Assembly: GCA_946567425.1 (NCBI GenBank)
Contig: CAMNXF010000004.1
Span: 1-64,000 of the forward strand
Length of the DNA stretch: 64,000 nucleotides
From: an uncultured Clostridia bacterium
Lineage (GTDB): Bacteria; Bacillota; Clostridia; Oscillospirales; Ruminococcaceae
Direction: 5' to 3'
Shown: one piece after another, positions 13,003 to 48,480 of the stretch
Numbering within the stretch: the first letter of the stretch is position 1
Layout of the letters: each line of letters begins with the position of its first letter
Position numbers and translations under genes: made by a program
Notes under the pieces: generated by a model
The model's database searches: none
What the model saw: only the letters and a program-made list of their open reading frames with translations
What the model was told of the DNA's origin: nothing

Positions 13003-13131
13003 ATAATGTCCTCATTTCATTACGGTTTTAGCGCTTTAATGCAGCCACGCATAAATGATTACAGACCCCGCGTGCCGTATCGAAATTTTCAAAGCTCTTT
13101 GCACTTTTGAAAATTACCAACGCTATAAAAC

Positions 13132-13160
13132 ATTTTAACACATTGAACAAAATTACTCAA
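13132..13160 (-). promoter_or_regulatory. Promoter of the Cache chemoreceptor gene
   Basis: On the - strand TTGAGT (13160-13155) and TAAAAT (13137-13132) with a 17-base spacer. The direct repeats at 13165-13203 begin five bases upstream of the -35 (measured to the shared core), in class-II-like activator position. Confidence 0.75.
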
Positions 13161-13164
13161 TCCG

Positions 13165-13203
13165 TTTGACATAATTGGTTGATTTTTTGACATAATTGGT
13201 TGA
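13165..13203 (-). promoter_or_regulatory. Paired direct repeats, probable LytTR binding site
   Basis: An 18-bp word TTTGACATAATTGGTTGA occurs at 13165-13182 and again, identical, at 13186-13203. The period is 21 bp, two helical turns. On the - strand it reads CCAATTATG-N12-CCAATTATG, the 9-bp/12-bp spacing known for LytTR-domain regulators such as AgrA. The same arrangement occurs before cheC at 15447-15480. The assignment to the LytTR protein at 15613 is inference from geometry and proximity. Confidence 0.7.
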
Positions 13204-13267
13204 GAATTGAGGATTGACTTTTTCAAAACCGCTGTATGTTATGGTTTGCTGCTTGATTATTGGAGAA

Positions 13268-30397: not shown

Positions 30398-31429
30398 TTA
30401 AAGCAGCGCCGCTTCAACTCCTATAATGCCGTTGATCTCAACCGTGCTCTCCCACTCCACCGAATAAAGGCGACTGCCGTAGTGCACGGTTTTCATTTTG
30501 TCGAGCGCGGCGCAAAGCGGATTATTTTCAAACCCGCCCCAGATTAGCAGCGTATACCCCGTCATCGCTGCCGCAGAGCGCAGAAACCTCTCGCACAACC
30601 GCCTGTCGTTATCGCGAACGTACAGATACGACACGACCCCGTGATTTATCACGCTTCCTGCTTTCGGGAACTCGGGATAACCGAACAGTTTGGTCGGCAT
30701 TTTTGAAAGCAGCCTGTACGCGCTGCCGTAGGAGCACATTTTGTATTGCTTTGTCGCTCGCTGATCGCCGATAAAACAACACGCGGCGATCTTCCCGTTT
30801 TCGCGGTATGAGTAGAACGTTTTCTCGCCGAAGCCGCGCAGCTCACAGTTTACGGGCGTAAGGCATATTTTTGAAAAATGTCCGCGCATAAGCTCCGCAA
30901 AGCCGTCCGTGTTGTTTTTTTCAACGGGCAGCAGCTTTTTCCCGCCGTGAAAGCAGTAGGTGTTGTAGTGCCCGAGATAGCGGTATTCGGGCATATTTTT
31001 GTGCCGCTTTTCAAGCAGAGATATCGCATCCTTGTTATCGTCGAGAATGGTAGTATAGCAGAACTTGCAGTGCCGTGTCCCCTCGCGGAGGAATTGATAA
31101 GCCTTTGCGATAAACGCGATTTTTCTGCGGTAATCGGGGCGTATTTTCAGCCCCGTAAGGTAGGCGCATTTTTCGGGAACGCCGTTCAGATACTCCTCGC
31201 GGACAACCGCGCCGCCCACCGCAATAACCTCTCCGCTCGAATTGTCGACTATGACCATAACGCGGTTTTCCTCGCCGTCCGCCGAAAACGACTCGAACGG
31301 CGAGGGAGCGCGCAGATACTGAACGCTTAAATTTCCCTCAAAGCCGACGCTCTCGAATATCCGCCGCATTCCCTCGTTGTCCGCGCTTTCGGCAAAACGC
31401 AGGGTGTAGCGGTCATTTTGGAAGTTCAT
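30398..31429 (-). CDS. GNAT-like acyltransferase, last gene of the radical SAM operon
   Basis: A 343-residue protein. The first half fits a GNAT fold: 'YTLRFAESADNEGMRRIFES' at the N-terminus, 'VMVIVDNSSGEVIAVGGAVV', then 'YLTGLKIRPDYRRKIAFIAK' where the acyl-CoA loop should be. A second, weaker repeat may follow ('TPVNCELRGFGEKTFYSYRE', 'GKIAACCFIGDQRATKQY'), so it could be a double-GNAT enzyme. I use the ATG at 31429 with AGGAG nine bases upstream; TTG at 31432 is also possible. It overlaps the preceding radical SAM gene by 17 bases. It probably acylates the product of the operon, which is inference. Confidence 0.72.
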   Translation of the reverse strand: MNFQNDRYTLRFAESADNEGMRRIFESVGFEGNLSVQYLRAPSPFESFSADGEENRVMVIVDNSSGEVIAVGGAVVREEYLNGVPEKCAYLTGLKIRPDYRRKIAFIAKAYQFLREGTRHCKFCYTTILDDNKDAISLLEKRHKNMPEYRYLGHYNTYCFHGGKKLLPVEKNNTDGFAELMRGHFSKICLTPVNCELRGFGEKTFYSYRENGKIAACCFIGDQRATKQYKMCSYGSAYRLLSKMPTKLFGYPEFPKAGSVINHGVVSYLYVRDNDRRLCERFLRSAAAMTGYTLLIWGGFENNPLCAALDKMKTVHYGSRLYSVEWESTVEINGIIGVEAALL

Positions 31430-32744
31430 CAAGATTTTCTCCTATCGGCACGTTCATTTTCTGATCTATCTCCTCGCCGAGCCGCAAGTTCATTCCCCAG
31501 AACAGCCACCACAGAAGCGGACTTGTGCGCCCCATTGACGCAAAGCCGCGGCTCATTACGGTCTTCGCGGATGAGAATTCCTTTCGCGCGTCGCGGCATA
31601 GCTTGCTCATCTTCTCGGCGGAAACCAGCTTCGGACGGAACGCCAACTCGCCGTAATTATACCCGTCCGCAAGCCACCATTTGTCGTAGATAAGGCGGTT
31701 ATCCTCTTTCAGACGGTTGTACAGCGCGGTATTCGGGAACGGCAGCAGATGATTGAATGCGGCGGTGTAGAAATTGTGCTTTTTTGCGAACTCCAGCGCG
31801 TCGTTTACTGTGCGCTCGTCGTCGTTGTCGTAGCCGAAAACGAATGTCGCGTAAATGCCTATCCCCGCGTCGTGAATGCGCTTTACAAGCTCGTCGCGCT
31901 CGCCGACCGCAAGATTGAAGGACTTGTTCATCTGCTTAAGGTTTTCGGGGTTAAGGCTCTCGAATCCTATCAGAATTATCTCGCAGCCGCTTTTTTTCAT
32001 GGTTTTCAGGAGCTGTTCGTCGCGCGCCATCGAGAGAGTTCCCTGACCCGCCCATTTTATTTTCAACGAAGTTATCTCCTCAAAAAGACTTATAGCGTTT
32101 TGGCGGTCGGCTACCAGATTATCGTCCACCAGAAACGTATATTTGTGCTTGGAATTTTTAATATCGTCCGCGACAAGCGAATGCTCGCGGCAATAATACT
32201 TGCTGCAGTAGAATTTCGAAATAGAGCAGAACTCGCAGCTGTGACAGCAGCCGCGCCCCGTCTCCACAAGCGACACGGGGAGATATTTCTTGCCGTTGAA
32301 GATACTTTTGTCGGGACGCACGTCGTACTCGCCCACGCTGCCGATATAGTGCCGTTTCAGCGCGCCGTTCTCCGCGTCGCGGAGCATTTCGCCCCAGACG
32401 GTCTCCGCGTTGCCGATGATCACCGAGTCGCAATATTCCTCCGCCTCCTCGGGGCAGAGCGTGACATGATAGCCGCCCATTACGACAGGAATGCCGCGCT
32501 CGCGGAACCTCTCGGCTATTTTGTAGCTGCGTTTCGCCGTGTAGGTCTCGACGGTTATACAGACAAGGTCGGTCTTTGTGCCGTAATCAATAAGCTCAAT
32601 TCGGTCGTCGAACAGCTCCGTTTCTATCTCAGGCGGCGTGAGCGATTTCAGAACGGCGAACATCAGCGGCTCCATTTTCCATGTGCCGATATATTTTTTA
32701 CCAGGCTTTTTCCCGATAGCGGGGAGAATAAACGTGATCTTCAT
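31413..32744 (-). CDS. B12-binding radical SAM protein 1
   Basis: A 443-residue class B radical SAM enzyme. Residues 1-130 look like the cobalamin-binding Rossmann domain, with 'DDRIE' after the second strand and 'PVVMGGYHVTLCPEEAEEY'. The 4Fe-4S motif is C166-x3-C170-x2-C173 in 'GRGCCHSCEFC', followed by the TIM-barrel 'FLVDDNLVAD' and 'ILIGFESLNPENLKQMNKS'. Such enzymes methylate or rearrange unactivated carbons. ATG at 32744; upstream AAGGAAA is somewhat distant. One of three paralogues in this operon sharing 'KMEPL..LKSLTP' and 'VETYTAKRSYKI' (also at 36309 and 37648). Confidence 0.9.
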   Translation of the reverse strand: MKITFILPAIGKKPGKKYIGTWKMEPLMFAVLKSLTPPEIETELFDDRIELIDYGTKTDLVCITVETYTAKRSYKIAERFRERGIPVVMGGYHVTLCPEEAEEYCDSVIIGNAETVWGEMLRDAENGALKRHYIGSVGEYDVRPDKSIFNGKKYLPVSLVETGRGCCHSCEFCSISKFYCSKYYCREHSLVADDIKNSKHKYTFLVDDNLVADRQNAISLFEEITSLKIKWAGQGTLSMARDEQLLKTMKKSGCEIILIGFESLNPENLKQMNKSFNLAVGERDELVKRIHDAGIGIYATFVFGYDNDDERTVNDALEFAKKHNFYTAAFNHLLPFPNTALYNRLKEDNRLIYDKWWLADGYNYGELAFRPKLVSAEKMSKLCRDARKEFSSAKTVMSRGFASMGRTSPLLWWLFWGMNLRLGEEIDQKMNVPIGENLDELPK

Positions 32745-32761
32745 AGCGTATAAAATTTCCT

Positions 32762-34096
32762 TTACAGTATCGGAATATCCGAATTGTCGCACATGACCTC
32801 TTTGGTGAACCTGCTCCACTTGTCAGCGTAACCCTTGTAGCCCATATTCAGCGGCAGCGAGAGCCACGGACTGTGACGGAACGGCGCTAGGCGCTTCATT
32901 ATGTTTCCCGTGGAATACGTCGCGCGCCACGCTCTGTCAGTACCCTGTTCGAGCTGCTCCACGGTCATGCGTTTTGGTTGGAAAACGCAGTGCTGAACAT
33001 CGTACATCGCCCAGTTGCGCTCGATTATCCTGCCCTCGCGTTCAAGCTGATCGTAGTAGCCCATTTTCGGGAACGGCGTAAGTATCGAAAAGCGCGGAAG
33101 GTCTATCTTCGCCTTGATTATCAGCTCGACGGTGCGGTCGAAAACGCTCTCGTCCTCCTCGTCGCCGCCGAACGCGAAGCAGCCCTGAACGAGTATTCCG
33201 TTGTCGTGCAGCTTTTTCATCAGTTCAACGTAGCCGTCGGGCTTGTTTACGCCCTTGTGGATATATTTCTGGCTCTCCTGCGTTATTGACTCGAAGCCGA
33301 TAAGCAAGCCCTTGCAGCCGCTTTTGCGGAACACCCCCATAAGCTCGTCGTCGATACCGACCGAGGAGGTCACAAGCCCAAGCCAGATAATTTTCAGAGG
33401 TATAAGCGCGTTGAAAAGCTCTATCGCGTACTCTCTGTCGGTTATCAGATTAACGTCGGGGAACGTGACGTGCTTGGTGTGGAGCGCCTCTATCTCCGCG
33501 ACGACCTCGTTTACGGGACGTTTGTACACCGTCCTCCCGAACGCCGCAGGGTACGCGCAGAACGTGCAGGTGTGGCAGCAGCCGCGTATTGCCTCGACGG
33601 TCTTGGTGGTGATGTAGCGCTTGGAGTTGAGCAGCTCGCGGCGCGGCGTGGGTCTGCCGACTATCGTGAAATCCTTGTTCTGGCGATAGAATTTTTGATA
33701 ATTTCCGTTCGCGTAATCGTGAATAAACTGCGGGAACGTCTGCTCGGAAAAGCCTGTGAACACAACGTCCGCATGCTGCGCCGCCTCTTCGGGGAGCATT
33801 GACGGATGAACGCCGCCCATAAAAACGGTTTTCCCCCTTTTGCGGAAATAGTCCGCGTAGGCATAGCACCTTGGAGCGGTACCCGTGATACAGGTTATCC
33901 CAATAAGCTCCGCATCTATCTCGAGCGGAATTTTCTCGGCGGTCTCGTCATAAATTTTCACCTCGACGTCAACGTCCTCGGGAATGAGCGCCGCGAGCGT
34001 CGTAAGGGTAAGCGGCGCGTAGTGGAGCGATTTCCCGAAGCTCCCCGAATATCGGTGCATAGCCCCCGCGGGCGCAAGCAAAGCCAGCTTTATCAT
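32762..34096 (-). CDS. B12-binding radical SAM protein 2
   Basis: A 444-residue class B radical SAM enzyme. The N-terminal domain has 'MGGVHPSMLPEEAAQHAD', and the cluster motif is C173-x3-C177-x2-C180 ('RGCCHTCTFC'). The barrel includes 'HVTFPDVNLITDREYAIELF' and 'LLIGFESITQESQKYIHKG'. It differs from protein 1 and groups with the 38961 gene: both have 'YAPLTLTTLAALIPE'/'YPSLTLAVIYSLIPE' and a 'RPVNEVVAEIEAL'/'RPVENVVAEIKSL' segment. GAAAGGAAAA precedes the ATG, which overlaps the GH3 gene by four bases. Substrate unknown. Confidence 0.9.
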   Translation of the reverse strand: MIKLALLAPAGAMHRYSGSFGKSLHYAPLTLTTLAALIPEDVDVEVKIYDETAEKIPLEIDAELIGITCITGTAPRCYAYADYFRKRGKTVFMGGVHPSMLPEEAAQHADVVFTGFSEQTFPQFIHDYANGNYQKFYRQNKDFTIVGRPTPRRELLNSKRYITTKTVEAIRGCCHTCTFCAYPAAFGRTVYKRPVNEVVAEIEALHTKHVTFPDVNLITDREYAIELFNALIPLKIIWLGLVTSSVGIDDELMGVFRKSGCKGLLIGFESITQESQKYIHKGVNKPDGYVELMKKLHDNGILVQGCFAFGGDEEDESVFDRTVELIIKAKIDLPRFSILTPFPKMGYYDQLEREGRIIERNWAMYDVQHCVFQPKRMTVEQLEQGTDRAWRATYSTGNIMKRLAPFRHSPWLSLPLNMGYKGYADKWSRFTKEVMCDNSDIPIL

Positions 34097-35622
34097 TTCG
34101 TTTTCCTTTCAAAGAAATTCTCCCAACCGCCTTTGCTGCTCAGCACGGCGGGTTTTATGTCGCCTATGCGCATTCCGTCGGCGGATAGCTTGTCAATATA
34201 ATTTTTTCGCGGATCGCCCGTTACCCGAACGGCCTCGGCGCAATCGAGCTGCCCCAGCTTGCGGCAGTAGTCGTAGTGATAACCCTCGCGAAGCGCGTTG
34301 TCAAGCGTTTCGTTGGTGATATTCTCACCCGTCGTATACAGGCGGTAGCGCTTTCCGTAAGGCGCAAGCAGACAAAATTCGCCCGAAACGCCGAGCCTTT
34401 TCAGCGTATCGCGGACAAATTCCTCCGTCAGCTTTTCGCCGAACAAATCGGAGGAAACGCCGCCGCGCCGCAGAAAGCGTATTCGCGGCGGTCGGTCGGG
34501 GTAGGTTTCCAGTACCTCAATTATGTCGCCGATACGGTATCTGTAAAAGCCGCCGCCCGTTGTTACGATAAGCTCATATTCGCCGCGTTTCAGTTTTCCA
34601 GCAGTGACGATCTTCCCGTCCGACAGCCGTCGGAACTCGAAGAAATGCGAGTACACGGAGAGCCGTGAGCCGTCCTCGCCGACCAGCGGAAACGACACGA
34701 AACACTCCGTCGCCAGCAAGCCCTTCGGCTGAACGTACACTCCGCGAAAAAGCAATCGCAGCTCCGCGATGTAGTCTGCGGCGCTGCCGTCCGCCCAGCA
34801 GCTGATTATTTTCAGGTCGGGGAATACGCGCTCAAAGCGGTTTTCGGCGGCGTTTTTCAGAAATTCGGCGCGGTCGTTTTCGGGAAGCGTTTTCGAGAGC
34901 GTCACAGCGTGCTCGCGGATATAACCGCAGAGTATCGTCAGAAACGTCGGGTTCCATACGGAAATCAGCGTCAGCGCGCCGCAATTCAGCAGCTGCCGAG
35001 CGGACTCAAAATAAAAACTGTCCATATTCTCGGGGAATTTCACGCTTCCGTCCACCGCGAAAATGCGCCGCATTATGCTCTGCTCGATAAATCCGAAATA
35101 CTCCGCGTCCTCCTCAAAACCGATGGGAATACCCACTTTCGTGCGGCTTTTACCCTCGGTCACTGGAGTTATCGACCAGTAGCTTTTCCCCGCGCGAACC
35201 TCGGGGAGCTTAGTGTAGATATCGCAGAGCCACGGCTTTATCCCGCGCTGAAATTCGCGTTTCAGCGACGGCGTGTACGGTATCAGCTTTTTGCCGCCCG
35301 AAGAGCCGCTCGTGGGCTCGAAGAGCTTTACGCGCTCGCTTGTAAGAACGTTTTCCGCACCGTCCGCCATTGCGCGGATATACGGCTCGTAGTCCTCGTA
35401 TTTCGTCAGCGGAACGCGCTCCGCGAAATCCTTGTAGCAGCGTATTTTATCAAAGCCGTATTTCCGCCCATAGACGGTATCGGAGTTCTTTTTGAGCAGC
35501 GCTTTGAGATATTTCCCTTGAACGCGGCTTACGCTGAGCGGCGAGATGAAGCGTTCGTATTCGTTTTTGTACAGCCGTCTGCAGAGCCCGTTCAGCAGAC
35601 AGCATTCAAGCTCAACGTTCAT
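34093..35622 (-). CDS. GH3-type adenylate-forming amide synthetase
   Basis: A 509-residue member of the GH3 (auxin-responsive promoter) superfamily. These acyl-adenylate enzymes couple a carboxylic acid to an amino-acid amine. Supporting motifs: phosphate loop 'FEPTSGSSGGKKLIPYT' near residue 104, 'LISVWNPTF', and 'TGGGFYRYRIGDIIEV' near 360, the A8-like hinge with the Y-R-x-G-D core. Plants use GH3 to conjugate hormones; bacterial members are scattered and mostly uncharacterised. The ATG overlaps the previous gene by 11 bases without a strong ribosome site, so translation is probably coupled. In this operon it likely forms an amide on a molecule built by the radical SAM enzymes. Confidence 0.85.
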   Translation of the reverse strand: MNVELECCLLNGLCRRLYKNEYERFISPLSVSRVQGKYLKALLKKNSDTVYGRKYGFDKIRCYKDFAERVPLTKYEDYEPYIRAMADGAENVLTSERVKLFEPTSGSSGGKKLIPYTPSLKREFQRGIKPWLCDIYTKLPEVRAGKSYWSITPVTEGKSRTKVGIPIGFEEDAEYFGFIEQSIMRRIFAVDGSVKFPENMDSFYFESARQLLNCGALTLISVWNPTFLTILCGYIREHAVTLSKTLPENDRAEFLKNAAENRFERVFPDLKIISCWADGSAADYIAELRLLFRGVYVQPKGLLATECFVSFPLVGEDGSRLSVYSHFFEFRRLSDGKIVTAGKLKRGEYELIVTTGGGFYRYRIGDIIEVLETYPDRPPRIRFLRRGGVSSDLFGEKLTEEFVRDTLKRLGVSGEFCLLAPYGKRYRLYTTGENITNETLDNALREGYHYDYCRKLGQLDCAEAVRVTGDPRKNYIDKLSADGMRIGDIKPAVLSSKGGWENFFERKTK

Positions 35623-36316
35623 TGAACAGCAGCGCGAGGACGCGCTTTTTCAGTACCGACTTGTCGATTTTCGCAAGGCAAGCCAGATCGTTCCCTATAA
35701 CGTAGTCGGGATTTTTTTCACGGAAAAACGCGATGTCCTTGTTTTTCAGCTCGTGCTCGCCTATATCCGCAACGCCCGTTTTCAGCTTGTCCTTGGTCGA
35801 CGCGTATTCGATAACACCGTTTTCGGGGTTGTATTCGTTCGGGTAAAGCAGCCGCGCGTAAGCGTTGATTATGCGCCGCTCGTATTCGGGCGTTTCGGCG
35901 CGGAAGTTCGGGAAAAATTCCGTCCAGAACAGCGGCATTATGCGGTATGTCTTGTAGCCCTTGCATATCAGGAACCAGTAAAATTCCCCGTATTTCTCGG
36001 CGAACGGAAACCAGAAATTCGCCCAGACCTTAAACAGCTCGATATCGCCCCAATACTCCTTATGGATTATCGTATCGCCTGAGAATATCCCGTTTACGCG
36101 TTTTCCGCCAACATCCAATTCAAGCAGCTTCTGCGTGGTGAAGCCCACAAGCTTGCCCGTTTCCGCGCGCAGCGAAAGACAGTAGTCCTTGTCGAAAAAA
36201 TCGCGGCGGAAAATATCCTCGTCCGTGTTGTCGTAAAACTCGGACATCAGCCTGTACATCGCGGAAATATCGTCCTCGGAATATTCCGATATCGGCAGTA
36301 CCCGTCCTTTAAGCAT
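35612..36316 (-). CDS. GNAT-like protein in the radical SAM operon
   Basis: A 234-residue protein with a possible GNAT fold: N-terminal 'DDISAMYRLMSEFYDNTDED', then 'GKLVGFTTQKLLELDVGGK', 'FSGDTIIHKEYWGDIELF' where the acyl-CoA segment would be, and 'WFLICKGYKTYRIMPLFWTE'. The canonical R-x-x-G-x-G/A loop is not clear, so the assignment is tentative. GGGGAGGAG precedes the ATG, which overlaps the upstream radical SAM gene by eight bases. Rich in aromatics. Likely an acyl transfer step, unproven. Confidence 0.6.
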   Translation of the reverse strand: MLKGRVLPISEYSEDDISAMYRLMSEFYDNTDEDIFRRDFFDKDYCLSLRAETGKLVGFTTQKLLELDVGGKRVNGIFSGDTIIHKEYWGDIELFKVWANFWFPFAEKYGEFYWFLICKGYKTYRIMPLFWTEFFPNFRAETPEYERRIINAYARLLYPNEYNPENGVIEYASTKDKLKTGVADIGEHELKNKDIAFFREKNPDYVIGNDLACLAKIDKSVLKKRVLALLFNER

Positions 36317-37667
36317 TTTTCTCCTCCCCGTTATCCTTTAAACCGAACCTCATTCCCTGTTTCTTGAAAACCTCCTTGCGGAAAAGGGGGTTGTACACAA
36401 GATAGGTCATAAACCTGTACGGCGTGCGCAAATTCGTGTGCGGCTCGAGCGCACGTTTAAATATCGAGCCGAAACTGTTGAAGCGTCTTCGGCAGTCGAA
36501 CGAGACCTCCGTCAGCTCGTCCGCGGTCATATTTTTCGGGATTATGCTCGCGTAGTTGAAACGGTAGTCCTCGTGCAGCCACCATTTGCCGCCGTACAGC
36601 AGCCGCCCCTCGCGCTCCAGTCTTTCATAGAGCGGAGTGTTAGGGTAGGGCATAAGAATGTTGTACGCCGCGAACGTGAACTTGTTCTTTATCGCGAAAT
36701 CGCAAGTCGCCATTATCGATTCAACGGTATCCGAATCGTGACCGACCGTAAATGCCGCCCACGTCTGCAAGCCCCATTTCCGCAGCTGCTCTATCTCCCA
36801 TTTGTACATCTCCGACGAGCCTTTTCTGTTTGTGCCCTTGTTCATCTCGGAAACGCTTTCGGGAGAAATCGACTCGAAACCGATGACCAGCCCCAGACAG
36901 CCGCTTTTCACCATAAGCCGCATAAGCTCCTCATCGTGCAGCATGTCCATGCTCCCTTGGCTCACCCAGCGTATTTTAAGCGGTATCAGCGCGCGGAAAA
37001 GCTCCTTTGCCTTTTCGTGGTCGCAGACGATGTTGTCGTCAACAAAAAACAGCAACTTTCGTTTCTGCGACTTTATCTCCTTAACAACGTCCTCGACGGG
37101 ACGGCAGTAGTGGTGCGCCTTGAAATACACTGACGACGCGCAGAAGCTGCATTTGTGGCTACACCCGCGTGAGAATTGCAGCAGCGTTATCGGCAGATAG
37201 CCCTTGCCCTTGAAGATGTCGCGCCGAGTTATCACATTTATCTGCGGACAGGTCGGCTGAATTACGTCGTAACGCGGCTTAAGCACGCCGTTTCGAAGAT
37301 CGTTCAGCATTGTTTCCCACACGGGTTCCGCGTCTCCGACTATAACGCTGTCGCAGTGCTCACCTACCTCCTCCGGTATAAGCATGGCGTGCATTCCGCC
37401 CATAACGGTCTTTACTCCGCGGCGTCGGAACTCGGCGCTTATCTCGTAAGCTCTCCGCGCCGTGAACGTCTCCACTGTTATCGCGACTAAGTCTGTCGGC
37501 TCGCCGTAGGGGATAGTTTCCATTCGGTCGTCATACATCACGACCTCGATATCGCTCGGAGTGAGCGCCGCAAGTATGCCGAGCTGGAGCGGCTCCATTC
37601 GTCCCTCGTCGATGTACAGGCTGTGTTCGCGCCTGCCTATATTGGGCTTAATCAACGTCAGCTTCAT
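36309..37667 (-). CDS. B12-binding radical SAM protein 3
   Basis: A 452-residue class B radical SAM enzyme: N-terminal 'RMEPLQLGILAALTPSDIEV', 'DDRMETIPYGEPTDLVAITV', 'TVMGGMHAMLIPEEVGEHC'. Cluster motif C169-x3-C173-x2-C176 ('SRGCSHKCSFC'), then 'FFVDDNIVCDHEKAKELF' and 'LVIGFESISPESVSEMNKG'. Closest in wording to proteins 1 and 4, which suggests duplication within the operon. GGGGGAATT precedes the ATG. The first 20 bases overlap the end of the upstream gene. Confidence 0.9.
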   Translation of the reverse strand: MKLTLIKPNIGRREHSLYIDEGRMEPLQLGILAALTPSDIEVVMYDDRMETIPYGEPTDLVAITVETFTARRAYEISAEFRRRGVKTVMGGMHAMLIPEEVGEHCDSVIVGDAEPVWETMLNDLRNGVLKPRYDVIQPTCPQINVITRRDIFKGKGYLPITLLQFSRGCSHKCSFCASSVYFKAHHYCRPVEDVVKEIKSQKRKLLFFVDDNIVCDHEKAKELFRALIPLKIRWVSQGSMDMLHDEELMRLMVKSGCLGLVIGFESISPESVSEMNKGTNRKGSSEMYKWEIEQLRKWGLQTWAAFTVGHDSDTVESIMATCDFAIKNKFTFAAYNILMPYPNTPLYERLEREGRLLYGGKWWLHEDYRFNYASIIPKNMTADELTEVSFDCRRRFNSFGSIFKRALEPHTNLRTPYRFMTYLVYNPLFRKEVFKKQGMRFGLKDNGEEKNA

Positions 37668-38964
37668 TTAAAATTCCCCCTAAAAGCCGCCCCTGTTTCT
37701 TGTGTATCTCCCTGCGCGAAACAAAGTTCGCCAGTACAAAAACAAAAAAGTTTATCGGAATGAAATTCGCGCGGTTGGATAACAGCCGCCTCAGTATGCA
37801 CCCGATCGAATAGAAATCCGTCCGTATTTTCAGGCAGCCGTTTTGCAGCTCCTCGGGCGACATATTTTTTGGCAGAAACGCAGTCTCGCCGTAGCGGTAT
37901 TTGTCGGAAAGCCACCATTTTTTATACCGCAGTCTGCCCTCTTTTTCCATTCGCCCGTAAACTCCCGTGCCTGGCATGGGTATAAGCGGATTGAAATTCG
38001 CAACCGACATTTTGTTTTTCACCGCGAACTCACAGGTCCTTCGGAACACGTCGGGAAAGTCGCCGTCGCACCCGAGTACAAACGTCCCGTAGATGAGCAG
38101 CCCGTGCGAATAAACGCGCCGTATCACATCGGAGTAGTCAGCGGCAGCGTTCGCGGATTTGTGCATTTCGCGCAGACTGTCCGCGTTCAAGCTCTCAAAG
38201 CCCATTAAAACAAGGAAGCAACCCGATTTTTTCATAGCGCGGAGTATTTCGCCGTCGCGCGCCGCATCCATGCTTATCTGACACGCCCAGCGCTTTTTCA
38301 GCGGAGCGATCGCCTTAAAAAGCGACAGCGCAGCCGCTTTGTCCGCGAAAATATTGTCGTCCGCGAAGAAGATTATTTTCTCCCGCATTTGCGAAAGCTC
38401 CTCGGCAACGACTTCAGGCGGCTTGCTGCGGACGCATTTGTACATTGTCTTTATAGAGCAGAAATCGCAGTTGAACTTGCAGCCGCGCGATATCTGATAC
38501 ACTCCTATGCCGTAATAGCTGTGCTTGTAAACGCTCTCGTCAGCGCGCAACGGAGCGATAGGGCGGCTTTCGTCCGAGTAATATTTCCGTTTCGGAGCAC
38601 CGTTTTCACAGTCCGCGAGAAAGTCCTCCCATGCACCCTCCGCGTCGCCGATGATAACCGAATCGGCGTATTTCAGCATTTCGTCGGGCATTACCGCTGC
38701 GTGAAATCCGCCCATTACTATTACATTCTCGGTGGTCTTGTATTTTTTCGAGAGAATATACGCGCGCTTTGCCGTGAACGTTTCCACAGAAAACGCGATA
38801 ATATCCGAGCTTATCTTCTCGGGGAGCTTTTCAACGCGCTCGTCTATAAAGTCTATCTCAAAGCGGCTCGGGGTAAGGCTCTTTATTATCCCGAAGAGCA
38901 GCGGCTTCATCGCGTCGGAGCTTACCCTCTCAAACATATTCACGCGTATAAACGTTATCTTCAC
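37648..38964 (-). CDS. B12-binding radical SAM protein 4
   Basis: A 438-residue class B radical SAM enzyme. It has 'AMKPLLFGIIKSLTPSRFEI', 'IVMGGFHAAVMPDEMLKYAD', cluster C162-x3-C166-x2-C169 ('SRGCKFNCDFC'), 'FFADDNIFADKAAALSLF' and 'LMGFESLNADSLREMHKS'. Start is GTG at 38964 behind AAGGTGA, overlapping the upstream stop by four bases. Its 'VETFTAKRAYILSKKY' segment is shared with proteins 1 and 3. Confidence 0.9.
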   Translation of the reverse strand: MKITFIRVNMFERVSSDAMKPLLFGIIKSLTPSRFEIDFIDERVEKLPEKISSDIIAFSVETFTAKRAYILSKKYKTTENVIVMGGFHAAVMPDEMLKYADSVIIGDAEGAWEDFLADCENGAPKRKYYSDESRPIAPLRADESVYKHSYYGIGVYQISRGCKFNCDFCSIKTMYKCVRSKPPEVVAEELSQMREKIIFFADDNIFADKAAALSLFKAIAPLKKRWACQISMDAARDGEILRAMKKSGCFLVLMGFESLNADSLREMHKSANAAADYSDVIRRVYSHGLLIYGTFVLGCDGDFPDVFRRTCEFAVKNKMSVANFNPLIPMPGTGVYGRMEKEGRLRYKKWWLSDKYRYGETAFLPKNMSPEELQNGCLKIRTDFYSIGCILRRLLSNRANFIPINFFVFVLANFVSRREIHKKQGRLLGGILNEADVD

Positions 38965-40259
38965 TTATTCACCTTGTTTATTCCCAAATATTTGAAGCCG
39001 ATATTAGCGCCGAGCAGAATAAACACATAGGGTTTATTCCGCCACGGCGAACTGACCGTCCGCCCGAACACGCGCCGCCACGTATACGCCTCGCGCCAGA
39101 CACGCCTATAGAGTCTGTCCAACCGCTCGGGAGTGAAATTTTTCGGCTTGAACACCGTGTTATGCTGATTGTAGCGGCTCCAGTCCTCGGTGAGTATGCG
39201 CCCCTGCTTTTTCAGACTGTTGAAAAGCGGCGTTCCGGGGTAGGGGGTCAGCACGGAAAATCGGCACAGGTCAAGACCGAGCCTGTCCACGCGTTTCGGC
39301 AGCGCGAGGATCTCCTTTTCAGTATCGCTGTCGAAGCCGAGTACAAAGCAGCCATTCACCGCTATGCCGTATTTATGTATGCTGGCGATTATTTCCTTGT
39401 ATTTATCGGCTTGATGAAAGCGCTTTGCCGCGCCCTTCAGCGATTGAGAATTAAGCGATTCCAGACCTATCAGCAGTCCTCGGCAGCCGCTTTCGCGCGC
39501 AGCTCGGAGCATTTCGGGGTCGTAACCGATATCGGCGGTAGCGTTCGCCGCCCAGAGTATCTTCAGCGGTTTCAGCGCTCTCATCAGCTTTAAAGCATAC
39601 TCGCGCCGTATAAAAAAATTCGGGTCGTAAAAAACAACCATTTTCGATTTCAGCGACTTTATTTCAGCGACGACGTTCTCCACGGGGCGCGGGTCGCATT
39701 TCCACATCATTCCCATAGAGCAGTAAACGCAGTGATTTGAGCAGCCCCTGTTGGCGGTGACCGCGGGGATCTTCAGCTTTTTTCGCTTGGTAATCTTATC
39801 GCGCGCGGGTATGGGGAACTTCGCAGGGCAAATGTTGAAATTGCGGTACAGCTTTTTCGGCTTGCCGCTCAGAAAATCCGAGATAAACTCGGGTACGGAT
39901 ATTTCGGCGGGTCCCGCTATCACGGTATCGCAGTGCCGTAAAACCTCGTCGGGCAGCGCCGTCGCGTGATAGCCGCCGCACACGACATACGAGCCGCGCC
40001 TGCGGAACTCGGCGCAGTGCTTGTACGCGGTAATGCTCGACGAGGTGTCGAACGATATCATCACCAGACCGTATTTTTCGCGGTCATAGCGCACTCTCTG
40101 CGAGTTTTCGTCAACAACGTCGATACGCTCGAACGCCCCCTCGGGGATAAGCGAATATATTACTGCCAGCGTAAGCGACGGATAGGAGAGCAGACTTGAA
40201 AATCTGCTTCTGTATGAGCGTTCTTTTTCGTTCCACGCGTGGATAAGCAGCAGTTTCAT
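38961..40259 (-). CDS. B12-binding radical SAM protein 5, first gene of the operon
   Basis: A 432-residue class B radical SAM enzyme. The N-terminal domain has 'VVCGGYHATALPDEVLRHC', and the cluster is C173-x3-C177-x2-C180 ('NRGCSNHCVYC'), followed by 'VFYDPNFFIRREYALKLM' and 'LLIGLESLNSQSLKGAAKR'. It belongs with protein 2 rather than with 1, 3 and 4. ATG with GGAGG nine bases upstream and a clear promoter at 40295-40323. It heads eight genes that overlap or nearly touch down to 30398, so all are likely made together. Confidence 0.9.
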   Translation of the reverse strand: MKLLLIHAWNEKERSYRSRFSSLLSYPSLTLAVIYSLIPEGAFERIDVVDENSQRVRYDREKYGLVMISFDTSSSITAYKHCAEFRRRGSYVVCGGYHATALPDEVLRHCDTVIAGPAEISVPEFISDFLSGKPKKLYRNFNICPAKFPIPARDKITKRKKLKIPAVTANRGCSNHCVYCSMGMMWKCDPRPVENVVAEIKSLKSKMVVFYDPNFFIRREYALKLMRALKPLKILWAANATADIGYDPEMLRAARESGCRGLLIGLESLNSQSLKGAAKRFHQADKYKEIIASIHKYGIAVNGCFVLGFDSDTEKEILALPKRVDRLGLDLCRFSVLTPYPGTPLFNSLKKQGRILTEDWSRYNQHNTVFKPKNFTPERLDRLYRRVWREAYTWRRVFGRTVSSPWRNKPYVFILLGANIGFKYLGINKVNK

Positions 40260-40294
40260 CTGTTTTCCTCCGTCAAGATAATTCCTTATTTAAT

Positions 40295-40323
40295 ATTATA
40301 TCATAAAATATCGCACAATGCAA
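40295..40323 (-). promoter_or_regulatory. Promoter of the radical SAM/GH3 operon
   Basis: On the - strand TTGCAT (40323-40318) and TATAAT (40300-40295) with a 17-base spacer, about 36 bases before the ATG at 40259. No cobalamin riboswitch is recognisable between the MATE stop and this gene. Confidence 0.78.
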
Positions 40324-40365: not shown

Positions 40366-41727
40366 CTATCCGTCTTTCGGTAGACGTTTAAGAAAAACAA
40401 TCATACAAGGCAGCGAGATAAGCGCGGTGATAAAGTACGCCAGCGGCTGAGCAGTCTCAATGCCCTTTATTCCCCAAAGCCGCGACAGAATGACGCACAG
40501 CGGTATAAAGACAAGTCCGCTTTGCAGACACGACAGCACCAGCGCGGGAATACTTTTCCCGATACTTTGAAACAGCATATTCACCACCATGGACGCGGGG
40601 AAGAACAGAAGAAATATGCACTGTATCCGCAAGGCTTCGCTGCCTATCTGCACGACCTCGCCTTCGTTTCGGAAAAGCGATATTATCTGCGGCGCAAACG
40701 CGAAGCAGCCCGCGGCGATAACGCCTATCGACGCCATTCCGAGCCCCAGCGTAAACCATGCTCCTTTTTTTACACGCGAATATTTTTTCGCGCCGTAGTT
40801 AAATCCCGAGACGGGCTGAAAGCCCTGTCCTATTCCCAGTCCTATGCTGAATATCAGGCTCGACGTCCTGCCGACATACCCCATAGCCGCTATAGCGGGA
40901 TCGCCGAACGGCTTCGCCTGAGCGTTAAGCACCATGGTCGACGCGCTGTTAAGCCCCTGTCTCGCAAGGCTCGGAAGTCCCGTTAAAACTATGCCCGCCA
41001 AAGTATTGAATTCCCTTGCGATAAAGCGCGGAGAAATTCTGCTCTGCGTTTTTCTGAGCAGAAACATCGACAACAGAATGCCGAACGATATGTACTGCGA
41101 GAGTGCCGTCGCAAGCCCCGCGCCGCTTATTCCCAGATCGAACGCGAATATAAACAGCGGGTCGAGCGCAATATTCAGAACTCCGCCCGCCATAAGACCT
41201 ATCATCGCCAGAGCCGCCTTTCCCTCGTAGCGGAGTATATTGTTAAGCACACAGCTTCCCGTCATAGCGGGCGCGGCGGCGAGTATAAACGTGCAGTAAT
41301 CCACGGCATAAGGCAAGATCGTGTCTGTGCTGCCGAGGAGCAACATAAGCGGTTCGATAAAGACAAGCCCGCCGATCATTATCAGAAAGCCGACAAGCAC
41401 CGCCCAGAAAAACCCCGTCGACGCGAATTGACTCGCCTTTTCATTGTGCTTTGCACCGAGCAGGCGGCTGATGTGACTTCCCGAGCCGTGCCCGAACATA
41501 AACCCGAAAGCCTGAAGAATAGCCATTACGCCGAACACGATGCTTGTCGCGCCGCCGGCGCTGAGCGAAATCCGACTGACAAAATAGGAATCCGCCATAT
41601 TGTATATATTTGTAATGAGCATACTTATAACCGTCGGTATGCCCAGTGATATTATCAGCTTTTCCACGGGCGTTTCGGTCATCTTTTTGTATTGACTGTC
41701 CGCGCCCGCTTCGATTTTCTTCTCCAT
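40366..41727 (-). CDS. MATE family efflux transporter
   Basis: A 453-residue MATE protein with the N-terminal 'LGIPTVISMLITNIYNMADS' helix, 'MFGHGSGSHISRLLGA', and 'GGVLNIALDPLFIFAFDLG' in the middle, about twelve hydrophobic segments in all. GGAGGTAAC precedes the ATG. It is upstream of, and co-oriented with, the radical SAM operon, separated by 106 bases and a separate promoter. Export of that operon's product is possible but only by position. It is not especially similar to the pump at 540. Confidence 0.93.
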   Translation of the reverse strand: MEKKIEAGADSQYKKMTETPVEKLIISLGIPTVISMLITNIYNMADSYFVSRISLSAGGATSIVFGVMAILQAFGFMFGHGSGSHISRLLGAKHNEKASQFASTGFFWAVLVGFLIMIGGLVFIEPLMLLLGSTDTILPYAVDYCTFILAAAPAMTGSCVLNNILRYEGKAALAMIGLMAGGVLNIALDPLFIFAFDLGISGAGLATALSQYISFGILLSMFLLRKTQSRISPRFIAREFNTLAGIVLTGLPSLARQGLNSASTMVLNAQAKPFGDPAIAAMGYVGRTSSLIFSIGLGIGQGFQPVSGFNYGAKKYSRVKKGAWFTLGLGMASIGVIAAGCFAFAPQIISLFRNEGEVVQIGSEALRIQCIFLLFFPASMVVNMLFQSIGKSIPALVLSCLQSGLVFIPLCVILSRLWGIKGIETAQPLAYFITALISLPCMIVFLKRLPKDG

Positions 41728-41819: not shown

Positions 41820-41916
41820 CAATAATTTACAGTTTTCGTCTTTTTTTGACGTTCACCGGCGGGGAAACCGCTTTTGATGCATGCGGTAAATTTGCGAAAA
41901 ATATTTCACGCTGCTA

Positions 41917-41945
41917 TTTACTTTTGGAAAAAAATGTGTTATAAT
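41917..41945 (+). promoter_or_regulatory. Promoter of cobU-pilT
   Basis: TTTACT (41917-41922) and TATAAT (41940-41945), 17 bases apart, 90 bases before the cobU ATG. The rest of 41728-42035 shows no further structure that I can support. Confidence 0.6.
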
Positions 41946-42035
41946 TATATTAAGAAAATGGTTTTCTCGGCTGAAAACGATTACATTCATCTGTTGCCGA
42001 GCGGCAATTGCCAAAAAAACAGAAGGAGTACCGAA

Positions 42036-42581
42036 ATGTCCAAATCTATTCTAATCACGGGCGGTGCGGCAAGCGGCAAGACGCGGTATGCCGTGACCGG
42101 CTTTGCGGCATTCGATTACGTTCTCTATTTGAGAATGGGCAAGGAGATCGACGCGGATATCCGTCAACGTATCGAGTTCGACAACAATAAGAACGGCGTG
42201 GAATGGGATATCATAAGTTCGCACTGCACGACCCCCGCAGACGAGGTGAAGGATCACAAGTTCGTCATATTCGACAGCGTGTCCTCGTATGCCCGTATGA
42301 TAATGCAGGAAATGTTCCCCGACAGGCAAGCGCCCGACGACGCGGCAAAGAAAAACGTCGAAAGGCGTATAATCGACGATATTTCGGCAGTGCGCGAAAA
42401 GGTTTGCGAAAACCGCGGCAGTTTGCAGATAGTTACGCTGGAAACGGGTTTTTCCGTTATTCCCGAGGACGGCTATCTCGCGGCGTACCGTGAGATAGTA
42501 GGGCGCGTTAATCAGCGTATCGCCAACTCCTCGGACGAGGTTTATTTCTCCGCGAGCGGAATTCAGTTTAAAATCAAATAA
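42036..42581 (+). CDS. cobU: CobU-like adenosylcobinamide kinase/guanylyltransferase
   Basis: A 181-residue protein with the CobU fold: P-loop 'LITGGAASGKTRYAV' at the N-terminus, a Walker B-like 'KFVIFDSVSSYARMIM', and the closing 'IVTLETGFSVIPE', 'YREIVGRVNQRIANSSDEV', matching CobU's 'NExGxGivPe...GR.NQ.iA..adeV'. The family's usual 'GGxRSGKSxxAE' and 'DCLTLW' are altered, so activity should not be assumed. ATG at 42036 has GGAG eight bases upstream; the longer frame from 41874 overlaps the promoter. CobU phosphorylates and guanylylates cobinamide in corrinoid salvage, which would serve the five B12-type enzymes nearby. Confidence 0.7.
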   Translation: MSKSILITGGAASGKTRYAVTGFAAFDYVLYLRMGKEIDADIRQRIEFDNNKNGVEWDIISSHCTTPADEVKDHKFVIFDSVSSYARMIMQEMFPDRQAPDDAAKKNVERRIIDDISAVREKVCENRGSLQIVTLETGFSVIPEDGYLAAYREIVGRVNQRIANSSDEVYFSASGIQFKIK

Positions 42582-44071: not shown

Positions 44072-44145
44072 TATTAGAGGGATTTTCGGCTCTCCTAATA
44101 ATGCGGCGCATTTTTCCTGCGGGTATTATTGGGAGGCGATTTTTT
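44072..44145 (+). promoter_or_regulatory. Transcription attenuator with alternative hairpins
   Basis: The segment 44090-44102 can pair two ways. Upstream, TATTAGAGGG (44072-44081) pairs with CTCTCCTAATA (44090-44100, one bulged C). Downstream, CTCCTAATAAT (44092-44102) pairs with ATTATTGGGAG (44125-44135, one T-G wobble) and is followed by six T (44140-44145), an intrinsic terminator that also buries the GGGAGG ribosome site. The two structures exclude each other, the logic of a classic attenuator. A ribosome stalled by drug on the upstream leader would favour readthrough. Confidence 0.72.
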
Positions 44146-45643
44146 GTCTTTAATCAAAATTTCAAACCTTTCGTTTTCCTATGACGGAAGCTATGAAAAT
44201 GTTTTTGAGAATGTTTCCATTCAACTTGACACCGCTTGGCGGCTTGGTTTTGTCGGAAGAAATGGTCGCGGGAAAACAACGCTTTTAAAACTGCTGACGG
44301 GCGAACTTCACGGCAGCGGGAGCATATTGGCAAACGTGGATTTTGAATATTTTCCCTATGCCGTTCAGAATAAGGACGATTTCACTATTGATATTATCCG
44401 CGAGATAGCTCCCGATACGAAGGATTGGGAAATACACCGCGAAATGTCGCTGCTGAATATCAGCGAGGAAGCGGACTATCAACCGTTTTCCACCCTTTCA
44501 AGCGGAGAACAGACTAAAGCGTTGCTTGTGGGATTGTTCCTGCGCCAAAATGCTTTTTTGCTGATTGACGAGCCTACAAATCATCTTGACAGCGACGGCA
44601 GAGAACTTTTAGGCAATTATCTGAGCCGCAAAAACGGATTTATTCTCGTATCTCACGACAGAAATTTCATTGACGCTTGTACTGACCATATTCTTTCGAT
44701 AAACAGGTGCAATGTCGAAATAACGCGTGGGAATTATTCAGAGTGGCAGCGTAATAAAGATATGCGCGACAGATTTGAAATATCGCAGAACGAGCGCCTG
44801 AAAAAAGATATTAAGCGTCTTGAAACTGCTGCTCAGCGCACCGCCGAATGGTCTGACAAAGCAGAAAGGGCTAAGATAGGCTTTGACCCCGCGAAGGTCG
44901 AAAAGAGTATAAACAGACGTCCTATGCAGGCGGCTAAAGCTAAAAAGATGATGTCGCGCTCGTCAGCTATCTCCGAACGGTGCGAGAGAGCGATAGACGA
45001 AAAAAGTAAGCTGCTGCACAACATTGAAAGCACCGCAGAACTTAAAATACGCCCGCTTGATTTTCACACAAAACAACTGATATGTCTTGAAAATATTGCA
45101 ATAAGATACGGCAATAAAACAGCTTGCGAGAGCGTAACGTTTAATGTTACGCAAGGTAGCAGAACGGCACTTGTAGGCGCAAACGGATGCGGAAAATCAA
45201 GCGTTCTTAAACTCATCTGCGGAGATTTTCAGGGTGAATACAGCGGAAATCTGATTAAAAACAATGGGCTTAAAATATCCTATGTTCCGCAGAATACAGA
45301 CCATTTACGCGGGTCGCTTAAAGAATACGCGGACAGCCTCAGCATTGATTTCAGCCTGTTCTTGGCGATATTGCGCAAGCTGGATTTTTCGCGTGAGCAT
45401 TTCGAGCAGAACATCGAGAATTTCAGCGCCGGACAGAAGAAAAAAGTTCTGATAGCGGGAAGTTTATGCGAACAGGCGCACCTTTACATCTGGGACGAGC
45501 CGCTGAATTACATTGATATAATCTCTCGCATTCAAATTGAAGAACTCATCTTGAAAAGCCGCGCTACAATTATTTTTGTGGAACACGACAGTGCCTTTCG
45601 TGATAAAATAGCAGATAATATTGTGATTATCAGCGAGAAATAA
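44144..45643 (+). CDS. ABC-F ribosomal protection protein (Lsa/Vga type)
   Basis: A 499-residue protein with two ATP-binding domains and no membrane helices. Domain 1 has 'GFVGRNGRGKTTLLKL' and 'LSSGEQTKALLVGLF', 'LLIDEPTNHLDSDG'. A charged linker (about residues 185-295) follows. Domain 2 has 'ALVGANGCGKSSVLKL', 'FSAGQKKKVLIAGSL' and 'LYIWDEPLNYIDI'. The start 'LIKISNLSFSYDGSYENVFENV' is typical of Lsa/Vga-type ABC-F proteins that displace lincosamides, streptogramin A and pleuromutilins from the ribosome. TTG at 44144 with GGGAGG seven bases upstream. Preceded by a leader peptide and attenuator, and flanked by IS256-type ends. The exact drug range is not predictable here. Confidence 0.88.
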   Translation: MSLIKISNLSFSYDGSYENVFENVSIQLDTAWRLGFVGRNGRGKTTLLKLLTGELHGSGSILANVDFEYFPYAVQNKDDFTIDIIREIAPDTKDWEIHREMSLLNISEEADYQPFSTLSSGEQTKALLVGLFLRQNAFLLIDEPTNHLDSDGRELLGNYLSRKNGFILVSHDRNFIDACTDHILSINRCNVEITRGNYSEWQRNKDMRDRFEISQNERLKKDIKRLETAAQRTAEWSDKAERAKIGFDPAKVEKSINRRPMQAAKAKKMMSRSSAISERCERAIDEKSKLLHNIESTAELKIRPLDFHTKQLICLENIAIRYGNKTACESVTFNVTQGSRTALVGANGCGKSSVLKLICGDFQGEYSGNLIKNNGLKISYVPQNTDHLRGSLKEYADSLSIDFSLFLAILRKLDFSREHFEQNIENFSAGQKKKVLIAGSLCEQAHLYIWDEPLNYIDIISRIQIEELILKSRATIIFVEHDSAFRDKIADNIVIISEK

Positions 45644-47676: not shown

Positions 47677-48432
47677 TTACTGATAGTCGGCTATGTCTAT
47701 CCATGTAAGCAGCAGCTCGCGCTCCTCGGGGCGGCGGAACTTAAGCTGCGCCGCCGCGATAACGGGCAGCCAGTCGTGCACGTACTTCACGGACGTGCCT
47801 GTTTTATTGCAGTATATCTTCAGATATTTCTCCGCCCATTCGGTGCGGTGTTTCAGGCAGAAATTAAGGTAGGTCTTGGCGACGTCGGCGGACGCGTTGC
47901 CCTGTTTGGCTTTAAGCCAGTCAACAATGAAAACACCGTCGCTGTTTACGATAATATTGTCGGGCGAGAAATCGCCGTGGCAGAGCTTGATGTGCTTAGG
48001 CATGGCGTTCAGGCGCGTAAGCAGATCGTACTTCTTTACGTCGTCGATCATATCCAGACCGTCGATCGAGCGTTTGAGATAGTCGGTCAGGCGGCTTATC
48101 TTCGCGGAATGCAGCGAGTTTATCTCGATCTGGAGATCCGCCATTTTGTCAAGGTATTCGTCAAGCTTCGCAGGATTTTCTTTCATAAGCTGTTCAAGCG
48201 TCTTTCCTGCGATATGCTCGTAGATTATCGCCCATTTGCCGTCGATCTTCACGATCTCCTCGAACTGCGGGATGCGCGCGAAGCCCGTTTCCTCAATGCG
48301 AGTGTGGGTCAGCGCCTCGTAAAGCACGACGCTTTTCGGCTCGTTCGGGTCTTTGAACACCTTGACGCACTTGCCGTCCGATTCGTACACCTGCACCTTT
48401 TCACCGTCCGAAATCATCTTTTTTAAATCCAT
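47677..48432 (-). CDS. Aminoglycoside phosphotransferase-family (APH) kinase
   Basis: A 251-residue small-molecule kinase of the APH/choline kinase superfamily. An N-lobe with 'WAIIYEHIAGKTLEQLM', then the Brenner motif 'LCHGDFSPDNIIVNSDG' (catalytic Asp and metal-binding Asn) and 'FIVDWLKAKQGNASADVA' with the metal Asp. ATG at 48432 is preceded by AAAGGAATGA; a start at 48450 would overlap that site. The substrate could be an antibiotic, a sugar or choline; the chromosomal setting favours a metabolic role. Confidence 0.85.
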   Translation of the reverse strand: MDLKKMISDGEKVQVYESDGKCVKVFKDPNEPKSVVLYEALTHTRIEETGFARIPQFEEIVKIDGKWAIIYEHIAGKTLEQLMKENPAKLDEYLDKMADLQIEINSLHSAKISRLTDYLKRSIDGLDMIDDVKKYDLLTRLNAMPKHIKLCHGDFSPDNIIVNSDGVFIVDWLKAKQGNASADVAKTYLNFCLKHRTEWAEKYLKIYCNKTGTSVKYVHDWLPVIAAAQLKFRRPEERELLLTWIDIADYQ

Positions 48433-48480
48433 TTTTGTCATTCCTTTCATTTAAATTTGATTTTATACTTCTCAATGTAG

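Follow-up and report, generated by a model that had tools for sequence, protein, structure and literature searches.

A recurrent Clostridial operon of five B12-type radical SAM enzymes, a GH3-family ligase and two GNAT-like proteins, possibly directed at a lipid-like N-acyl-amide

What kind of molecule would require five related radical S-adenosylmethionine (SAM) enzymes, an amide-forming ligase and two GNAT-like proteins, all encoded in one run of overlapping genes? This question is raised by contig CAMNXF010000004.1 of an uncultured Clostridia bacterium (Ruminococcaceae; assembly GCA_946567425.1), of which positions 1 to 64,000 were analyzed as a whole (the window). According to the list of open reading frames (ORFs) of the window, positions 30398-40259 are filled by eight open frames on the minus strand. 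They were named, in the order of transcription, R8, R7, R6, GNATb, GH3, R3, R2 and GNATa. We narrowly favor the view that these genes form a self-contained, horizontally spread and carrier-free operon, the product of which would be a lipid-like N-acyl-amide; for the product class by itself the chances seem about even. The features of the locus are the following.

40295..40323, minus strand: probable promoter (TTGCAT, 17 bases, TATAAT; TG ahead of the -10 element)
38961..40259, minus strand: R8, B12-type radical SAM enzyme of the R3/R8 lineage, an optional gene (Pfam, tree, locus typing)
37648..38964, minus strand: R7, B12-type radical SAM enzyme of the R2/R6/R7 lineage (Pfam, tree)
36309..37667, minus strand: R6, B12-type radical SAM enzyme of the R2/R6/R7 lineage (Pfam, tree)
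35612..36316, minus strand: GNATb, small, weakly GNAT-like protein (hhalign) without a Pfam or NCBIfam match
34093..35622, minus strand: GH3-family acyl-adenylating amide synthetase (PF03321 and motifs)
32762..34096, minus strand: R3, B12-type radical SAM enzyme, part of a five-gene core (Pfam, tree)
31413..32744, minus strand: R2, B12-type radical SAM enzyme, part of the five-gene core (Pfam, tree)
30398..31432, minus strand: GNATa, GNAT-domain protein of 344 residues (N-terminal Acetyltransf_1), the last gene of the operon

Overlaps were found at six of the seven junctions. They amount to 4 bases for R8/R7 (38961-38964) and GH3/R3 (34093-34096), 8 bases for R6/GNATb (36309-36316), 11 bases for GNATb/GH3 (35612-35622) and 20 bases for R7/R6 (37648-37667) and R2/GNATa (31413-31432), the last being counted from a TTG start and reduced to 17 bases if the next codon, an ATG, is used. 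At the remaining junction, a gap of 17 bases separates R3 (ending at 32762) from the ATG of R2 at 32744, a start which was picked by homology. Upstream of R8, the promoter proposed in the original prediction is present at 40323-40295 with a perfect -10 element. Its weak -35 element matches three of the six consensus bases, which is why a scan for promoters by consensus pattern did not list it. A distance of 106 bases lies between R8 and the upstream gene of a MATE transporter (40366-41727, same strand), which is not part of the conserved gene set. RNA families at gathering score and tRNA genes were not found within the window. The arrangement of eight mostly overlapping minus-strand genes is as first described, and it is near certain that they form one operon.

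The recurrence of this operon was examined in 34 further loci, the window being excluded. These comprise 21 cassettes (L013-L033), eight loci from sampled genomes and five plasmid records; the 21 cassettes stem from a GH3 scan of genome contigs which yielded 24 loci, the other three being distant GH3s without a cassette. The full order R8-R7-R6-GNATb-GH3-R3-R2-GNATa was found in 13 of the 34 loci, and the same order without R8 in seven, three of which (L019-L021) have less than 540 bases of contig upstream. The five-gene core GNATb-GH3-R3-R2-GNATa occurs alone in three loci (L090, L104, L147). Other orders are R3-R2-GNATa-GNATb-GH3 (L092), R7-R6-GNATb-GH3-R3 (L091) and the permuted set of a Citrobacter plasmid (L136). 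Four loci are broken off by contig ends (L030, L033, L103, L105), with L103 bearing an additional R3/R8-like gene at its front, and four have no radical SAM genes (L140-L143). GNATb adjoins GH3 in all 29 radical SAM cassettes whose contig extends there; 26 of 27 contain GNATa. The joint occurrence of a GH3 gene with several class B radical SAM genes, left open by the original prediction, is therefore recurrent, and a grouping confined to this one genome is excluded. The loci are not fully independent, since L014 and L015 look near-identical. By their records, the 21 cassettes belong to Clostridia groups and, in one case, to Limnochordia, and six records name an animal gut (goat, deer, horse).

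In L032, GH3 and R3 are separated by a large ORF (11478-13988) that matches EAL, GGDEF and peptidase S51; the eight-gene cassette is otherwise complete. In-frame stops were observed in R2 of L014 (residue 153) and R7 of L016 (residue 12), which may reflect decay, a later start or an assembly error.

The surroundings of the cassettes are less constant. For L144, L013, L031 and L014, no flanking ORF matches the window, some of these contigs giving only 2-3 kb of flank. Clustering of the flanks of 34 loci gave two largest groups of ten and seven loci, in each of which one member could be named, an ABC ATPase and a histidine kinase, respectively. The other groups listed comprise two or three loci each, and L031 and L033 have three flank families in common. 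Beyond the ABC-ATPase-type and sensor-kinase-type groups no recurring partner was seen, most flank genes being left unnamed, and the conserved Clostridial set includes no transporter among the loci typed.

The distribution of the cassette is rare and patchy. R3 was found at E < 1e-200 in four genomes of a class sample of 391, each with a cassette (31 genomes at E up to 1e-60), and GH3 at E < 1e-150 in five of 398 genomes from the phylum, again all with cassettes (13 at E up to 1e-10). Six distant GH3 loci of the phylum sample (L106-L111) gave no BLAST match to other cassette genes. Among 150 near relatives, GH3 orthologues are present in five, all of the window's genus (nine at E up to 0.001). 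R2 was detected in three of 196 genomes at E < 1e-200, and GNATb in four of 299 sampled genomes of the phylum, each time within a cassette. These counts for R3, GH3 (phylum and near relatives), R2 and GNATb include the window's own genome. In the classes of two further genomes, G641 and G761, GH3 was found in one of three and two of 97 genomes, respectively. Carriage by phages or viruses was considered and set aside, as no relatives of R3 were found in viral contigs, and none in phages at E up to 1e-30.

The five radical SAM enzymes fall into two lineages. In a tree of 75 rows, with outgroup enzymes taken from the R3 and R2 searches and characterized enzymes left out, R3 and R8 form a clade of 19 rows (support 100/99) and R2, R6 and R7 one of 26 rows (100/100). 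A second tree of 81 rows gave the same two lineages (100/97 and 99/97) with a different branching order of R2, R6 and R7. Both trees agree with the two subfamilies distinguished beforehand (31413, 36309 and 37648 versus 32762 and 38961). In the tree of 75 rows, long branches occur among the outgroups and some of the plasmid and L091 rows, and the Citrobacter plasmid has a member in each of the five enzyme groups, its placement being weak inside R2 (84/28) and R3 (91/69). The full set seems to be older than the split between these copies. In L093 (8674-11219), two R3-like radical SAM proteins are encoded in tandem; they fall outside the cassette clades, and no GH3 or GNAT match was found in the surrounding 20 kb.

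Strong purifying selection acts on each of the eight genes. Between the window and L013, the ratios of nonsynonymous to synonymous substitution rates (dN/dS) range from 0.058 to 0.160, with GNATa compared over 316 codons only and dS saturated at 1.2-2.5. Furthermore, the pairwise distances of the five core proteins across 16 close loci are correlated with r of 0.89-0.93, a value reached by none of 2000 permutations; this correlation may come in part from shared species history.

Outside the Clostridia, the set was found on a plasmid of Citrobacter portucalensis from a gull cloaca (NZ_CP134684.1) in the order GNATb-GH3-R3-R2-GNATa-R7-R6, followed by a PAP2 phosphatase gene and a gene for a small protein. 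Encoded on the other strand are an R8-like protein and a fatty acid desaturase. The R6 protein is 58% identical to that of the window; the plasmid versions of GNATb and GNATa are distant, at 29% and 27%. Assignment of the R8-like gene is ambiguous, as BLAST gives 42% identity to R3 versus 41% to R8 and locus typing calls it R3, whereas the tree groups it with R8. Megablast with the Citrobacter cluster gave no near match in E. coli genomes and, in plasmids, returned only itself. Of seven other plasmid records with R3-like proteins, three were examined, from Paraclostridium, Treponema and Aureibacter; the R3-like protein stands alone in each, no GH3 or GNAT being annotated within 8 kb.

In addition, relatives of GNATb, GH3 and GNATa occur in sets without radical SAM genes. 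Acinetobacter baumannii NZ_CP064203.1 (one of two records; L140:4219-16583) encodes, in this order, a LuxR-like protein (labeled by reading the sequence), an amidase, HlyD, MFS, GNATb, GH3, an outer-membrane efflux protein, GNATa and SurE; no paper on this set was found in the literature searched. Burkholderia arboris (L141) has GNATb, GNATa and GH3 among genes for three FA_desaturase proteins, a PF10118 protein, a Rieske oxygenase and a flavin adenine dinucleotide (FAD) monooxygenase, with both strands in use. In Azospirillum (two of eight records; L142:10313-14059 and L143:8374-11968), a distant GNATb was found near a fatty-acyl-reductase-like NAD_binding_4 protein and a porin. For the GC-rich Burkholderia and Azospirillum loci, genes were called by codon composition.

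The assignment of the GH3 domain is firm (PF03321, 144 bits). The window protein contains the motifs TSGSSGGKK, KGLLATE and YRIGD, corresponding to the three nucleotide-binding motifs of GH3 enzymes as described in PMC12493201. Of 31 sequences including that of the window, 29, 27 and 23 match loose patterns of the three motifs, respectively. The top matches in the PDB are plant GH3s (best E 2.4e-19), and the sole NCBIfam match is OlsH, a lyso-ornithine lipid synthetase, at 47 bits against a cut-off of 620.

The two GNAT-like proteins are more divergent. GNATa matches Pfam Acetyltransf_1 at its N-terminus (26.4 versus a cut-off of 20.7), its C-terminal half has no match, and a search for a second GNAT half as an internal repeat detected none. 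GNATb matched no family in Pfam or NCBIfam. With diverse rows, hhalign aligns GNATb and GNATa over the GNAT core at a probability of 85%; with close orthologues only, GNATb compared to the two halves of GNATa gave 14% and 1%. The coenzyme A (CoA) pyrophosphate loop of GNATs has the pattern [QR]xxGx[GA]. Over the N-terminal 190 residues, it was found in none of 19 GNATb and one of 18 GNATa sequences (L017), there 20 residues beyond the place of the motif. In more diverse sets it was found in two of 13 GNATb, both off the motif place, and in none of ten GNATa. The aligned stretch at the place of the loop reads SGDTIIHKDYWG or similar in the 13 diverse GNATb rows and LTGLKIxPxYR or similar in the ten of GNATa; an RG pair is kept there in GNATa of L092 and L140, the full loop being absent. 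As neither family shows the usual acetyl-CoA loop, the acylation expected of these proteins is unproven and that part of the original prediction was not upheld. They may rely on a different donor or on none at all.

Pfam Radical_SAM is above its cut-off in all five R proteins, and both the CxxxCxxC cluster and the GGxH loop, noted at the outset for the window proteins, were present in 120 of 120 sequences checked from the five families. The N-terminal cobalamin-type domain, also claimed from the start, holds for R2 (31413; 32.5 bits, just above) and R3 (32762; 36.2) at the Pfam B12-binding cut-off of 32.1, and R6 (36309; 23.1), R7 (37648; 26.9) and R8 (38961; 26.9) score below it. The best NCBIfam model of each R protein is HpnJ, BchE or PhpK at 87-94 bits versus cut-offs of 481-600, and no NCBIfam cut-off is reached by any protein of the operon. 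A PDB search with the R2 profile gave 9ccb as the sole match.

These scores bear on a rival reading, compatible with the favored one, in which the five enzymes have a cobalamin-type fold without using cobalamin and would catalyze dehydration or redox reactions instead of methyl transfer. AprD4 (6fd2), the best sequence match of both R6 and R3 in the PDB, has a cobalamin-type fold and is not known to use cobalamin. The motif DxHxxG, sought in the first 200 residues, is missing in 120 of 120 sequences. Three of the five window enzymes lie under the Pfam cut-off. Set against this, DxHxxG is often missing in class B radical SAM enzymes anyway, B12-binding matches at E up to 1e-4 were obtained for 13 of 13 R6, 13 of 14 R7 and 13 of 13 R8 orthologues (39 of 40 in all), and cobalamin riboswitches occur in 11 of 12 cassette genomes, though also in eight of 14 control genomes, a surplus which is suggestive only. 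We regard a cobalamin-free mode as tentative, the less probable of the two, and cobalamin use by the five enzymes is likewise unproven; the chemistry of each enzyme cannot be told from its sequence. A gene encoding a CobU-like cobinamide kinase lies on the plus strand of the window at 41874-42581, beyond the MATE gene, with PF02283 above cut-off at 84.3 bits and an NCBIfam score of 85.4 bits versus a cut-off of 161.

In the pathway we favor, GH3 would adenylate a free carboxylic acid with ATP and join it to an amine or amino acid, like plant GH3 enzymes and the planctomycete OlsH. GNATb and GNATa would work together with GH3. They could either provide or pass on the amine or acyl partner, drawn from something different from CoA, or give the product its shape. 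The carbon chain may first be modified at C-H positions by R3 and R2, e.g., through methyl transfer, cross-linking, ring formation or desaturation, and then in further steps by their diverged relatives R6, R7 and R8, so as to yield a lipid-like N-acyl-amide. In oxygen-using bacteria, the GNAT-GH3-GNAT set might be combined with desaturases and a Rieske oxygenase instead of radical SAM enzymes. A fatty acyl chain would be the likeliest substrate, because desaturases are found near two of the distant relatives and a PAP2 gene near one. Of the small molecule or lipid considered in the original prediction, it is the lipid that gained some support from these relatives, namely the neighboring desaturases and the Citrobacter PAP2 phosphatase.

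Several observations weigh against this pathway. The low score of GH3 against the OlsH model makes a transfer of substrate from OlsH weak, and the Clostridial cassettes themselves contain no lipid genes. In L091, neither R2 nor GNATa adjoins the other genes. The Acinetobacter set has no adjoining desaturase, and as the Burkholderia genes lie on both strands, their joint function is deduced from proximity in a single genome. GNATa is weak in Acinetobacter and Burkholderia (21% and 20% identity, 47 and 46 bits); in Pfam it reaches 16.8 versus a cut-off of 20.7 in Acinetobacter, where it was overlooked by locus typing, and has no match in Burkholderia. Finally, no GH3 was found within 10-12 kb of GNATb in the two Azospirillum records.

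Alternatively, the product could be a small polar molecule, such as a C-modified amino acid, a dipeptide-like antimetabolite or a signal, with GH3 joining two small parts and the radical SAM enzymes acting on the carbons of an amino acid. The plant GH3 enzymes which are the best PDB matches act on small hormones, the top model of R6 is the P-methyltransferase PhpK (92.7 bits versus a cut-off of 600), and the HlyD-MFS-outer-membrane efflux trio, the amidase and the LuxR-type gene of Acinetobacter would suit an exported signal or antimetabolite. However, the desaturases of Citrobacter and Burkholderia as well as the Citrobacter PAP2 phosphatase point to fatty acyl chains, and the conserved Clostridial set lacks a transporter, so that we consider a small polar product doubtful.

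It is improbable that the radical SAM enzymes act on a ribosomal peptide. The model ApyD, belonging to ribosomally synthesized and post-translationally modified peptides, is among the weak matches (57.7 bits versus 750), but the junctions in the window, with six overlaps and one 17-base gap, leave no room for a precursor gene, and 106 bases are available ahead of R8. No precursor peptide gene lies between the operon genes of the window, where this search was confined within the genome. Gaps of at least 100 bases between cassette genes exist in some other loci, e.g., 487 bases in L018; ORFs of 80-100 residues in the flanks form a recurring group of their own in at most two loci among the groups listed, a survey that did not extend to shorter ORFs.

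Least probable, by a small margin, is a phosphonate or phosphinate pathway with P-methylation, since, in spite of the PhpK match of R6 and a phosphonate-binding protein and phosphoglycerate-mutase-like gene adjoining the L091 cassette, phosphoenolpyruvate mutase is above cut-off in only three of 12 cassette genomes, the window's own genome remaining below it (22.3 versus 31.5 bits), and a phosphonate-type flank group was not seen to recur among flank genes that were mostly left unnamed; it was disfavored on the mutase counts. The stretch beside L091 (2751-8237) further encodes a sodium:sulfate symporter and a URO-D protein.

Returning to the N-acyl-amide pathway, we propose, with the chances somewhat below even, that GNATb-GH3-GNATa constitutes a new carrier-free module for amide assembly with exchangeable C-H chemistry, which moves between phyla and has reached an enterobacterial plasmid. 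If so, anaerobes would equip it with duplicated B12-type radical SAM enzymes, whereas desaturases as well as Rieske or diiron oxygenases would serve in aerobes. The resulting amide lipids or signals would form a new class, with some members occurring in animal guts. If the molecule made by the aerobic relatives is of the same kind, oxygen-free and oxygen-dependent C-H chemistry would be interchangeable within one pathway. The five-, seven- and eight-gene versions offer a natural experiment on the chemistry added by each radical SAM copy, and through the Citrobacter plasmid the pathway is present in an E. coli relative, where its product and steps can be tested.

Further genes in the window comprise a LuxC-type acyl-CoA reductase about 11 kb from the operon (51636-52973, minus strand; PF05893, 178 bits), which is a possible source of fatty aldehyde, a two-domain ABC ATPase with two PF00005 stretches (44129-45643, plus strand) and an APH-family phosphotransferase (47677-48450, minus strand).

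Among known systems, the ornithine-lipid pathway OlsH/OlsI of planctomycetes comes closest on the side of the ligase. There, according to PMC12493201, amide synthesis by a GH3-family enzyme proceeds without acyl carrier protein or CoA, other bacterial GH3s are expected to form other N-acyl amino acids, and N-acyl amino acids are reported to occur in gut Clostridia, which fits the operon without being evidence for it. The likeness lies in a bacterial GH3-family enzyme making an amide, which for the operon is read from sequence; the differences are that the window GH3 stays far under the OlsH cut-off and that the terms "radical SAM", "acetyltransferase" and "GNAT" are absent from the main text of that article. 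The accessible part of PMC8305402 is unrelated to the gene set. The plant enzymes JAR1 and GH3.8 share the three nucleotide-binding motifs with the window GH3 and are distant from it, as the E-value of the best PDB match indicates.

The radical SAM enzymes resemble HpnJ, BchE, TIGR04072 and AprD4, class B enzymes of lipid or tetrapyrrole pathways, in their domain order, CxxxCxxC cluster and GGxH loop. Their scores against the HpnJ, BchE and PhpK models are low, and in the tree, which includes no characterized enzymes, they form two clades apart from the sampled outgroups. Several class B enzymes per cluster are found in the bottromycin, thienamycin and ladderane-associated clusters. In contrast to such multi-radical-SAM clusters, the eight genes of the operon include, by Pfam, no domain of a nonribosomal peptide synthetase, polyketide synthase or carrier protein, and to our knowledge the GNAT-GH3-GNAT set is not known from them. 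The gene set was not found in the literature searched, which held few subscription papers, and with no NCBIfam equivalog cut-off reached, the initial impression that no pathway of this combination has been described still stands. The operon looks like a pathway undescribed in that literature, built from types of enzymes which are each known singly.

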